Shown here: positions 36,972-46,566 of the stretch, piece by piece | Numbering within the stretch: position 1 is the stretch's first letter | How the letters are laid out: every line of letters starts with the position of its first letter | NCBI GenBank assembly: GCA_017482385.1 | Contig: JAFUNI010000017.1 | Location: 1-64,000, forward strand | DNA length: 64,000 nt | Direction: 5' to 3' | DNA from: Oscillospiraceae bacterium | Lineage (GTDB): Bacteria; Bacillota; Clostridia; Oscillospirales; Oscillospiraceae | Program-made: the position numbers and the translations under genes | Notes under the pieces: generated by a model | Databases searched by the model: none | Told to the model about the DNA's origin: nothing | Seen by the model: the letters and a program-made list of their open reading frames with translations, nothing else

Positions 36972-37000
36972 TTGCATTTTGTCGAAAAATCTGCTATAAT
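36972..37000 (+). promoter_or_regulatory. Sigma-A promoter of Y-shaped element 1
   Basis: TTGCAT (36972-36977), 17 bp, TATAAT (36995-37000). The expected start at about 37005-37007 coincides with the first base of the 24-bp stem. Confidence 0.85.
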
Positions 37001-37004
37001 GTTC

Positions 37005-37281
37005 AGGCTGAGGAGAGTCGAACCCCAACAGGTTTTCAGATGTCTGCATTCCCCAATACATCAGAAAATCGCTTGATAATACAGCAAGTATTGTCTGCGC
37101 GATTTTATTCGTCTTGAAAAATGCAGGCAGCTGAAAACTGCGAAGCACCCCTCAGCAAGAAATTTTTGATTGATTTTTGGTACGGATGACGCAGCCTTGC
37201 TGACGCAAGGCAAGGAAAACAAACCAAAAAGCGGCAAAAAGAGCTGCTGTGGGGCTATTGGGGTTCGACTCTCCTCAGCCT
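37005..37281 (+). ncRNA. Y-shaped structured element 1 (candidate non-coding RNA, 277 nt)
   Basis: A perfect 24-bp stem joins 37005-37028 with 37258-37281. It can extend by GTT/AAC around one bulged C. Inside are two arms. Arm 1 (37032-37138): a 19-bp helix with one G-U and one A-G, then AAAATCGC/GCGATTTT and AATAC/GTATT. Arm 2 (37148-37254): CCCCTCAGC/GCTGTGGGG with one mismatch, TTTTTGGT/ACCAAAAA and GCCTTGC-TGAC-GCAAGGC. A 9-nt linker (37139-37147) carries CTGCGA together with the last base of arm 1. A promoter starts exactly at the stem and a TTTTT follows at 37285-37289. It could be a free RNA or the leader of the DUF3048 gene. Confidence 0.7.
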
Positions 37282-37306: not shown

Positions 37307-38389
37307 ATGAAACGTATTACTGTTATATTCTTAGTACTCACTATGATGCTCGGTTTGCTGCTCAGCGGCTGCGGCTGCAGTAAAAAGCCCGCTACTGACC
37401 CCACCGAAGCTTCCACAGCTCCCACCGAGGCTACCACGCCTCCCGCAACCCTGCCTCCCCAGGAGGCTAACCGCCATCCTCTGACCGGTGAGAAGCTGAC
37501 TGAGCCCTGGTCCGGCCAGATCGTAGCTGTAAAGGTGAATAATATCAGAGATGCTATGCCCCAGCATGGCGTAAGCCAGGCAGATGTTGTCTATGAAATC
37601 GAGGAAGAGGGCACTACCCGGAATATGGCCCTGTATTCCGATATTTCCAAGGTGGACAGAATCGGCTCTATCCGCTCTACCCGCACCTATTTTGTCAGCG
37701 TGGCAGCTGCTTATGATGCTTACCTGGTCCACTGCGGCACCAGCATCCACGCAGAAAACGGCGGCTATGACGCAAACGGCAACAAGGTGTCTAACTGGAA
37801 GGATATCGACGAACAGAAGAACGCGAACACCCAGTATTTCTACCGGGATAAGGATCGTAACAACGCAGGCTACGCTTGGGAACACACCCTGTTCACCAGT
37901 GGCGAAAAGCTGGCAAAGGCCTTGGAGGGCAAGGATCTGAGCGTTCCCAAGACCGGTTTTGTCTTTAAGGAAGGCGTAGAGCTGCCCGGTGGTGAAACTG
38001 CAAACGAGATCACCATTAAGTTTAAGACCAGCGGTAAAACCACTACCTTTATCTATGATGCAGAAACCGGCCTGTATGCCCGCAACCAGTATGGCAAAGA
38101 GTGCATCGATGGCAATAACCAGCAGGTTGATGCTGTAAAGAATGTGATCACCCTTTATACCAAGCAGTGGTACTGCCCCCAGGGTCATGGCCATCACTAC
38201 TATGATACCATCGGTTCCGGCGAGGGCTACGCAGCTGTGAACGGCAAAATCGTGCCCATCAAGTGGAGCAGAGCTTCCGTAGATGCGCCTTATATCTACA
38301 CCCTGGCTGACGGTTCTCCCCTGGAGCTGGATGTGGGCCGCAGCTACATCTCCATCGTTGGCGAGAAGTTCCCCATCGAGTATAAGTAA
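37307..38389 (+). CDS. DUF3048 (YerB-like) lipoprotein
   Basis: 360 residues with a lipoprotein signal peptide; the lipobox LLLSGC ends at about residue 21. A Thr/Pro/Glu-rich linker (TEASTAPTEATTPPATLP) tethers the extracytoplasmic domain. That domain has WSGQIVAVKVNNIRDAMPQH, the conserved ADVVYEIEEEGTTRNMALY, and the DRIGSIRSTRTYFV block, all DUF3048 features of Bacillus YerB. Its role is not established; surface attachment is clear. A ribosome site (GGAAAGGAA) lies right after element 1, so translation could depend on that structure. Confidence 0.9.
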   Translation: MKRITVIFLVLTMMLGLLLSGCGCSKKPATDPTEASTAPTEATTPPATLPPQEANRHPLTGEKLTEPWSGQIVAVKVNNIRDAMPQHGVSQADVVYEIEEEGTTRNMALYSDISKVDRIGSIRSTRTYFVSVAAAYDAYLVHCGTSIHAENGGYDANGNKVSNWKDIDEQKNANTQYFYRDKDRNNAGYAWEHTLFTSGEKLAKALEGKDLSVPKTGFVFKEGVELPGGETANEITIKFKTSGKTTTFIYDAETGLYARNQYGKECIDGNNQQVDAVKNVITLYTKQWYCPQGHGHHYYDTIGSGEGYAAVNGKIVPIKWSRASVDAPYIYTLADGSPLELDVGRSYISIVGEKFPIEYK

Positions 38390-38785: not shown

Positions 38786-38974
38786 AATATAACACAGGTT
38801 TTTGGGTTTTGCAAGATGGCTTATTGCACAAAGTATGCAAGTTCAACTTGTGCAACTTGCAGAAAATGCTGTTAAATATAACATTTGCTTGATTTTCTTG
38901 CAAGAATTTGATAGAATAAATTCGTTGGGCGACAACCGGAACTCCGGTTGCCGCCCATAATCAGCAAGTGTGTT
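38786..38974. other. Intergenic stretch without a gene
   Basis: AT-rich. I see only the candidate minus-strand promoter at its left end, a GCAAGTT/AACTTGC dyad near 38835-38860 and a small hairpin GGGCGACAACCGGA/TCCGGTTGCCGCCC at 38927-38956. Confidence 0.6.
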
Positions 38975-39050
38975 GTAGGGGAGGGATAATATCCCTCCCG
39001 CAGCAAATCAAAAATCTGAAATTTCGGGAGGCATAGTATGCCTCCCCTAC
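38975..39050. repeat. Palindromic repeat, copy 3 (B-A)
   Basis: Same two halves in reverse order, with a spacer of about 28 bases. It ends 12 bases before the stop of the TIGR00300-like gene. Confidence 0.95.
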
Positions 39051-39062
39051 AAAGCAGGGCTT

Positions 39063-43810: not shown

Positions 43811-44266
43811 TTATTTCTCTTCCAGGAACTGCTCGATCTCGTGGACAAAGCTGCGCACATCCACAAACCGACGGTATACAGAGGCAAAGCGGATATAAGC
43901 CACCTCATCCAAAGTCTTGATCCGCTCCATCACCATTTGGCCAATGGTGTCGGTGCTGACCTCCCGCTCCAGGGTGTTCTGAATGGTCTGCTCGATCTCG
44001 GTAGCAATTCGGTCCAGATCCTTTACATCCACCTTCCGCTTGTCAAAAGCCCGGACCATAGCATTAAGGATCTTATTCCGGTCGAAGGCCTGGCGGGTGC
44101 CGTCCCGCTTCACAACGATGATGGGCAGGCTTTCCACTACTTCATAGGTGGTGAAACGGCGCTGACAGTTCAGACATTCCCGGCGGCGGCGAATGCTCTG
44201 GCCGTCCTCGGAATGACGGGAGTCTACAACTTTACTTTCCTGGTCTCCGCAAAATGGACATTTCAT
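43811..44266 (-). CDS. nrdR: Transcriptional repressor NrdR
   Basis: A 151-residue global regulator of ribonucleotide reductase genes. The zinc ribbon has CPFCGDQE and CLNCQR; the ATP-cone domain starts at about residue 49 (IIVVKRDGTRQAFDRNKIL). It senses ATP/dATP and binds NrdR boxes. Its leader of about 300 bases contains Y-shaped element 2. A minus-strand promoter for it is at 44618-44592 (TGGACA, 17 bp, TATAAT). It leads a seven-gene run. Confidence 0.96.
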   Translation of the reverse strand: MKCPFCGDQESKVVDSRHSEDGQSIRRRRECLNCQRRFTTYEVVESLPIIVVKRDGTRQAFDRNKILNAMVRAFDKRKVDVKDLDRIATEIEQTIQNTLEREVSTDTIGQMVMERIKTLDEVAYIRFASVYRRFVDVRSFVHEIEQFLEEK

Positions 44267-44297
44267 AGGAAACGCACCTCTTTTTCTGTATTTACCA

Positions 44298-44570
44298 TAG
44301 CCTGGCCGACATAATCCGAACCCGTTCCTGAGCTGCGGGGCAGTCCCAATGCCTCGTTACCGCTTCTTGAAGGGCGGCTAGCCCATCTGCGAAGCGGTGC
44401 CTTGCCTTAGAACCGCCCCGTAGCTTAGGAATCTGCGACCTAAGGGGGATGGATGAATGGATCAGGCGAAGCATAGGAAGCCGATGGGCTGACGCCCATC
44501 AATGAATATAATGACGACTGAGCCAATCAGACACACCCTTAGGCGGGTTCGGATTATGTTGGCCAGGCTA
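44298..44570 (+). ncRNA. Y-shaped structured element 2 (candidate non-coding RNA, 273 nt)
   Basis: A 27-bp stem joins 44298-44324 with 44544-44570 with one G-U on the plus strand; it can extend past one mismatch. Arm 1 (44327-44429): 15-bp helix with two G-U, then ACCGCTTC/GAAGCGGT and GGGC/GCCC. Arm 2 (44439-44543): CCTAAGGG/CCCTTAGG and GATGGGC/GCCCATC. A 9-nt linker carries CTGCGA (44433-44438). The layout copies element 1 although most bases differ. The three G-U pairs favour plus-strand RNA, but the only clear promoter reads from the right toward nrdR, so the strand is uncertain. Confidence 0.65.
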
Positions 44571-44635
44571 AGGTATACATAATATCGATTCTATTATACC
44601 AGCAGAATTCGCCGCTGTCCAGCATTTTTTTACCC

Positions 44636-46260: not shown

Positions 46261-46303
46261 AATTACCTCCAGGCAAAACTTGTAGTATTTGAATTTGTAT
46301 TTT

Positions 46304-46381
46304 GTAGGGGAGGGATATCATCCCTCCCGCTACCTTACCAACATTGGAACCATTGCGGGAGGCATACTATGCCTCCCCTAC
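46304..46381. repeat. Palindromic repeat, copy 4 (B-A)
   Basis: Same halves with a spacer of about 30 bases, between the CDF and DegV genes. Confidence 0.95.
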
Positions 46382-46566
46382 AGGGGAATCGCCGCTTTTT
46401 GAAATTCTACCGGCAGTAGAGTGAGAAATTCTACCGCCGGGAGGTATGAAAATACCCCATTCCAGCCCCGGGGGCTGTTCAAAAATAGGATTTTTGCGTA
46501 AAATATGTACCGTAAATATTATACGCGGCCAGGCGCTTCCTGTCCAGCGTTTTTGAAGGAGTTTTT
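46382..46566. promoter_or_regulatory. Upstream region and promoter of degV
   Basis: GAAATTCTACCG occurs twice (from about 46400 and 46424), 24 bases apart. The promoter is TTGCGT (46494-46499), 17 bp, TATTAT (46517-46522). AAGGAG precedes the ATG. Confidence 0.65.

Follow-up and report, generated by a model that had tools for sequence, protein, structure and literature searches.

Two-armed palindromic repeats with a common arm module in an Oscillospiraceae genus, read as MITE-like mobile DNA

We propose that el2, a tightly folded 273-nt element in the 64,000-nt stretch of Oscillospiraceae DNA analysed here (the window), is probably non-autonomous mobile DNA of the MITE kind (~275 bp), most likely moved in trans, whose pairing would be kept as DNA. 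Its copies are dispersed, sites without the element exist, the arms vary in sequence while staying paired, length is nearly constant, and one arm module recurs in three families (el1, el2 and the single-armed el3) that have different ends. Judged from sequence, these observations point to mobilisation in trans, to upkeep of the pairing at the DNA level and to a protein that may bind the unpaired residues kept at the arm tips. We read el1, el2 and el3 as MITE-like palindromes in which one arm module sits inside different ends and which would be kept as DNA hairpins. They form a new family group of an ordinary kind, set apart by a two-armed plan, the common arm module and a preference for leaders.

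The two elements of the window follow the same plan (Table 1). The initial annotation gave their lengths as 273 nt (el2) and 277 nt (el1), both of which are exact, and closing stems of 27 and 24 bp; the stem of el2 has 26 Watson-Crick pairs in 27 positions plus one G-T, and that of el1 runs for 24 pairs before a mismatch and is paired at 26 of 27 positions overall. The MFE fold likewise agrees with the proposed arm 2 lengths of 105 nt (el2) and 107 nt (el1), and with 107 nt for arm 1 of el1; for arm 1 of el2 it gives 107 nt instead of 103. A linker of 9 nt, ascribed to both elements, is found in el1, but the junction of el2 measures 7 nt. CTGCGA does occur in both junction regions (at 44433 in el2 and 37138 in el1), and CGAACCC/GGGTTCG is common to both stems. 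Folding of positions 44290-44580 yields an MFE of -160.5 kcal/mol (z -12.6), a value that none of 200 shuffles equalled, and the opposite strand of el2 folds equally well (z -13.1), as expected of a palindrome. Exact 12-mer inverted seeds with spacers of 180-280 nt number 18 in the window, overlapping ones counted; the same count in 20 triplet-shuffled windows never exceeds one. No ORF of at least 80 aa among those of the window lies wholly within el1 or el2. The Rfam gathering scan of the window returned two tRNAs only and no family at el2 or el1, and the single family returned by an Rfam E-value scan of four loci lay outside the element and did not reach its gathering score. Separately, the window holds two related palindromes of ~80 bp each, 7.3 kb apart (38973-39052 and 46303-46382; TGTAGGGGAGGGATA..CCTCCC and GGGAGGCATA..CCTCCCCTACA), possibly another dispersed palindromic repeat family.

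Table 1. Coordinates of the elements and neighbouring genes in the window, with the basis of each assignment
Feature	Position	Strand	Basis
el2 copy, a probable complete mobile two-armed palindromic element with TA at either end	44298-44570	+	copies in its own genome at 96% (full length) and 92% (no arm 1); TA ends
el2 left terminal repeat, 5' side of the closing stem	44298-44324	+	26/27 paired with 44544-44570
el2 hairpin arm 1, 107 nt	44325-44431	+	MFE fold; part missing from the C14 copy
el2 junction between the arms, TCTGCGA	44432-44438	+	MFE fold
el2 hairpin arm 2, 105 nt, with the module common to el1 and el3	44439-44543	+	MFE fold; profile matches of el2 against el3
el2 right terminal repeat, 3' side of the closing stem	44544-44570	+	pairs with 44298-44324
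el1 copy, second member in the window, plan as in el2, sequence diverged	37005-37281	+	MFE fold; 83 distinct el1-type copies
el1 arm 2, tip GGATGACGC-stem-TGAC-stem-AAGG	37148-37254	+	fold, alignment, profile matches
nrdR (NrdR zinc ribbon and ATP cone), with el2 inserted upstream of its start	43811-44266	-	Pfam PF22811, PF03477
DUF3048 protein gene, directly downstream of el1	37307-38389	+	Pfam PF11258, PF17479

How widely are such elements distributed? The search for further copies that the initial annotation suggested finds many, in the genome of the window and in its relatives; the collection comprises 83 distinct el1-type copies, 17 of the el2 type and 50 of the single-armed el3 type. As el2 is nearly self-complementary, its profile was built from the best strand only. 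The genome itself (G000) contains three copies of el2: that of the window, a full-length one at 96% on another contig (G000:C18) and one at 92% that is without arm 1 (G000:C14). Matches to el2 occur in 10 of 99 genomes, G000 included. They are of element length in six (G000, G014, G016, G017, G033 and G041); G030, G042 and G060 match in the common arm region only, and G097 matches weakly over 36 nt. el1 has matches in 20 of 101 genomes of the genus, again with G000, and el3 in 41 of 136; 18 of the latter reach E<1e-15, and the remaining el3 matches mostly represent a tip of 41-62 nt inside el1 or el2. A degenerate junction pattern picked out 84 stretches in a collection of genome contigs, of which 80 fit the el1 profile and four loci off it (L112, L113, L150 and L155) were left out. 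Among the matches listed for this pattern, most are MAGs that bear the labels Oscillospiraceae, Clostridiales, Clostridia, Eubacteriales, Eubacterium or Acutalibacter; there is also one Lachnospiraceae, and a short contig of low coverage is assigned to Pyramidobacter. Many of them come from the gut of goat, sheep, deer or yak. Phages searched with el3 and plasmids searched with el2 gave no match, and three scans of viral contigs gave 3, 0 and 0 loci, the three being off the el1 profile. The exact tip-motif pattern was found in none of 391 genomes across the class, a weak test in that the own genome also scored zero and members of the family make up only three of the 391 (own included). Among the matches listed in a search of the open-licence literature, no title or abstract start describes such an element in this group.

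The third type, el3, is a single hairpin of ~156 nt (exactly 156 nt in 23 of 39 copies) with ends TACTAA..TTAGTA, and its central ~80 nt share homology with arm 2 of both el2 and el1, the homologous part often being shorter in el1. The el3 model matches 15 of 17 el2 copies and 49 of 83 el1 copies, the el1 model 31 of 50 el3 copies, and the el2 model 37 of the 50 el3 copies at E<1e-3 (best 2.8e-11). The ends of el1 (TAAGC/TAGGC) and of el2 (TAGCC) are different from each other and from those of el3. Independent chance insertions of hairpins at two sites, which the initial annotation had named as a finding that would speak against its proposal, would fit the fact that el1 and el2 differ at most positions and that the el1 model finds none of the 17 el2 copies at E<1e-3. 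However, the el2 model does recover 8 of the 83 el1 copies (best 1.2e-9), the plan, the junction and the arm-2 module are common to both elements, and each is a multicopy family, so that this explanation is ruled out for practical purposes.

The initial annotation noted that the two stems differ in sequence yet stay paired, and this extends to the families. The shuffle-controlled count used 36 of the 83 el1 copies (<88% identity, 273-282 nt) and an el2 alignment (A2) of 15 copies, namely the 13 of the wobble count below together with the window copy and L002, both near-duplicates of one of the 13. In el1, both partners have changed without loss of pairing in 77 of 92 pairs, paired cells make up 94.3% against a shuffled mean of 76.4%, each of five measures of covariation was reached by 0 of 500 shuffles, and shifting the partner by 1-3 columns destroys the signal. 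In el2, 29 of 84 pairs have changed on both sides and four of the five measures lie above all 500 shuffles, the exception being the number of pair types (118/500). Unpaired residues at the arm tip and the junction are kept in many copies, those of the tip in all three families. Covariation across homologues, whose lack the initial annotation would have taken as a refutation, is thus present, but by itself it is not proof of RNA function here. Both the covariation and the conserved unpaired residues would be accounted for by a rival view in line with the RNA class suggested by the initial annotation: a conserved structured RNA (an sRNA or a cis-regulatory leader) that is incidentally mobile and whose fold is selected in the transcript.

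Selection on the fold of a transcript should permit G-U pairs but not A-C. Wobbles were counted in 61 of 83 el1 copies (<95% identity), 13 of 17 el2 copies and 39 of 50 el3 copies, and the strand-neutral set comprises the pairs predicted from both strands. In this set el1 has 89 G-U against 95 A-C, el2 19 against 27 and el3 35 against 12. RNase P RNA of the same genus served as control (29 sequences, drawn from 30 of 55 matching genomes after exclusion of the oversized L306) and gave G-U:A-C ratios of 296:19 on its own strand and 30:12 in the strand-neutral set. When each strand is given its own best fold, G-U exceeds A-C throughout, at 194:113 and 280:104 for el1, 45:28 and 68:21 for el2, and 108:22 and 78:38 for el3, which counts against upkeep as DNA, as does the strand bias of el3. 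The contrast with RNase P holds for el1 and el2, is smaller under the strand-neutral control and is absent for el3, whose 35:12 is similar to the 30:12 of RNase P; strand-specific tolerance of G-U is not seen in el1 or el2. The paired changes of el1 and el2 are therefore strand-symmetric, as expected for DNA-level pairing, which argues against selection in a transcript, as does the lack of an Rfam match to the element. As a side observation on the control, RNase P RNA matches measure 434-652 nt instead of the usual ~350, i.e. they carry large inserts, in 10 of 61 genomes searched (G016, G023, G026, G027, G034, G036, G039, G041 (L306), G054 and G056); by eye, the insert of L306 is not obviously el1, el2 or el3.

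What keeps the arms paired? One answer is purely mutational: template switching during replication would copy arm onto arm with no selection of the fold, a view that is compatible with a MITE and differs on what maintains the pairing. The strand symmetry of el1 and el2 fits it, and template switching is described as a source of compensatory changes (PMC8794818). Against it, the unpaired tip residues are kept and not erased in many copies of all three families, and el1 holds its length: of 61 nonredundant copies with a mean identity of 64%, 55 measure 276-282 nt. We regard mutational upkeep alone as possible, with the balance somewhat against it. The implication of these counts is that very strong covariation (77/92) can go with strand-symmetric wobble, and that a mobile DNA palindrome judged by covariation alone would be mistaken for an RNA class; the three families also offer material for studying the ways in which long palindromes stay paired.

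Comparison of orthologous loci shows sites with and without the elements. The el1 copy L055 (G102) is missing at eight fetched orthologous loci, and the empty site of L205 reads CCTCCTTATCC against CCTCCTT(element)ATCC in L055. At the L055 site in G000:C4 (~85685, L203) there are a few extra bases, TA-CCC-TA, a possible excision footprint; it was set aside as a firm one, since one base departs from the end of the element. The el1 copy of the window is also present in G102 and is absent from G104. For el2, the nrdR locus has a match in 81 of 101 genomes, and of the 30 loci fetched, that of the window included, none of the other 29 carries the element. The nrdR locus of G104 has an 11-nt scar, TTTACCC-TAGCCAGGCTA-AGG, a remnant of both el2 ends, and that of G102, with a flank closer in sequence to the window than that of G104, has no el2 remnant; in more distant nrdR loci the upstream regions are too divergent to count as clean empty sites. 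Neither insertion is therefore conserved genus-wide, and for nrdR this again speaks against a conserved RNA. The G000:C14 copy has lost arm 1 between two CTG triplets, and the scar in G104 joins two GCC triplets. Loss between short direct repeats is a signature of slippage across a DNA hairpin, and these two deletions look like such events.

el1 shows a preference in its placement relative to genes. The flank was long enough in 74 of the 83 el1 copies, and in 38 of these a Shine-Dalgarno sequence and start codon lie no more than 45 nt from one end; for random TA sites the figure is 118 of 1464. In 51 copies the Shine-Dalgarno lies within 150 nt, and in 30 of these it is less than 10 nt away, compared with 160 of 1823 control TA sites upstream of 285 genes (p ~4e-19); only two of the 51 fall in the range of 20-45 nt expected for a promoter. 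Adjacency within 45 nt is weak in el2 (3/17) and el3 (12/47). The location of el1 copies in 5' leaders, a short way ahead of the ribosome-binding site, could be either tolerated or targeted, and a concentration at the 5' edge of Shine-Dalgarno sites would be unusual if it reflects targeting. In the window, a promoter-like TTGCAT-17-TATAAT (36972-37004, read by eye) ends 4 nt before el1, which would place the transcription start of the DUF3048 gene at around the first bases of el1. Promoter enrichment upstream of gene-facing copies is not apparent (el1 3/38, el2 2/4 and el3 2/13 against 52/1500 random 100-mers); the rule used misses the TTGCAT-17-TATAAT of the window.

An RNA class would gain from the many el1 copies in 5' leaders, from the position of the el1 copy of the window between a promoter-like site and a Shine-Dalgarno, and from the strand bias of el3, which also has a direction bias (15 copies opposite to the gene and 5 in the same direction, p 0.04). 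Yet el1 faces genes both ways (29 same, 22 opposite, p 0.40). Of the initial proposal, a conserved RNA class and not chance, the second half stands on the multicopy families; the first gives way to mobility, empty sites, either gene orientation and strand-symmetric paired changes. We consider the RNA label the weaker reading, and an unlikely one, compared with a mobile DNA palindrome, even if el3, given its two biases (35 vs 12 and 15 vs 5), may have some RNA-level part.

Several features expected of a MITE are present: terminal inverted repeats, short length (~156 or ~275 nt), no transposase gene inside, and many dispersed copies. TA/TA ends are found in 17 of 17 el2 copies (16 of 17 under a stricter rule). 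The end profile could be anchored in 70 of 80 el1 and 43 of 49 el3 copies; el1 has paired TA ends in 47 of 80, which is compatible with TA duplication and decay, or with no duplication. Flanks of el3 carry equal TNA triplets on both sides in five of eight copies inspected, and TNA appears in the flank profile of 43 copies. The terminal repeats of el1 often contain GGTTCGANTCC (for example L118 6271-6546 and L121 5231-5507), which in our view resembles a tRNA T-arm followed by an acceptor-like stretch.

Ends of el3, TACTAAAA..TTTTAGTA, resemble those of a DDE_3 (PF13358) element, L216 being the most similar one. DDE_3 insertion sequences, which we take to be IS630-type, occur in 9 of 136 genomes of the genus, and strong el3 matches are found in six of these nine and in 12 of the 127 others (Fisher p 1.5e-4, with a cut-off picked after seeing the list). 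The source of L216, G140, has no el3 match in the search of 136 genomes, and the tip motifs were not seen in six delimited DDE_3 elements. We also observed that the DDE_3 elements L214, L216, L217, L219, L222 and L223 measure ~1.0-1.1 kb with ends TACT..AGTA, and that all five with both flanks have a TNA triplet on either side, identical in three. DDE_3 as transposase of el1 and el2 is not supported: none was found in the 13 el1/el2-bearing genomes searched, the sole match among 16 being G042, an el3 genome. In an informal look at the el1 and el2 genome matches, no gene enclosed by their ends was noticed. The IS630 family member ISY100 duplicates TA and requires only its transposase (PMC2170065).

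From these sequence comparisons we envisage the following model. Two terminal inverted repeats enclose two long arms, so that each strand could fold into a Y, and a transposase acting on the ends would move the element in trans; for el3, a DDE_3 insertion sequence of the genus with similar ends may be the mobilising source. Pairing would be maintained at the DNA level by extrusion of hairpins or cruciforms with selection of the fold, by template-switch repair from arm to arm, or by both, and the unpaired residues kept at the tips may bind a protein. An el1 copy inserted into a 5' leader would become part of the mRNA. A more speculative view, which we think improbable, makes the common arm (tip GCAGATGACGC-stem-TGAC-stem-AAGGAAGATAA, with homology over as much as ~80 nt) a portable cassette whose hairpin one putative protein recognises and which sits inside three kinds of ends, with el1 insertion aimed at the 5' border of ribosome-binding sites. 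Were it true, mobile DNA hairpins would be delivered into mRNA leaders genome-wide.

How do these elements compare with known repeats? As described in PMC3049150, RUP of Streptococcus pneumoniae is ~107 bp long and tightly folded, with paired terminal repeats and ends like those of IS630-Spn1, and BOX of streptococci is built from boxA, boxB and boxC modules, with terminal repeats. el3, being short and folded with IS630-type-like ends, is the best fit to the RUP pattern; el1 and el2, in contrast, are two-armed and ~275 bp long, and their mobilising element was not found. BOX is modular as el1, el2 and el3 are, but it varies the number of its modules, whereas here one arm module sits inside three kinds of ends. 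The ERIC/IRU repeats target TA, and we know of no arm module that they have in common with other families. They are dispersed in enterobacteria, form one long stem-loop and are said to regulate neighbours as RNA hairpins in Yersinia (PMC2267715); the same paper gives the Efa-1 and Pae-1 families a predicted pair of adjacent stem-loops. The likeness to ERIC/IRU is that of dispersed folding repeats, and the difference is that ERIC/IRU is a single hairpin of ~127 bp. Compared by description only, Efa-1 and Pae-1 have two adjacent stem-loops as el1 and el2 do, and a closing terminal stem, as found in el1 and el2, does not figure in the passages that describe them.
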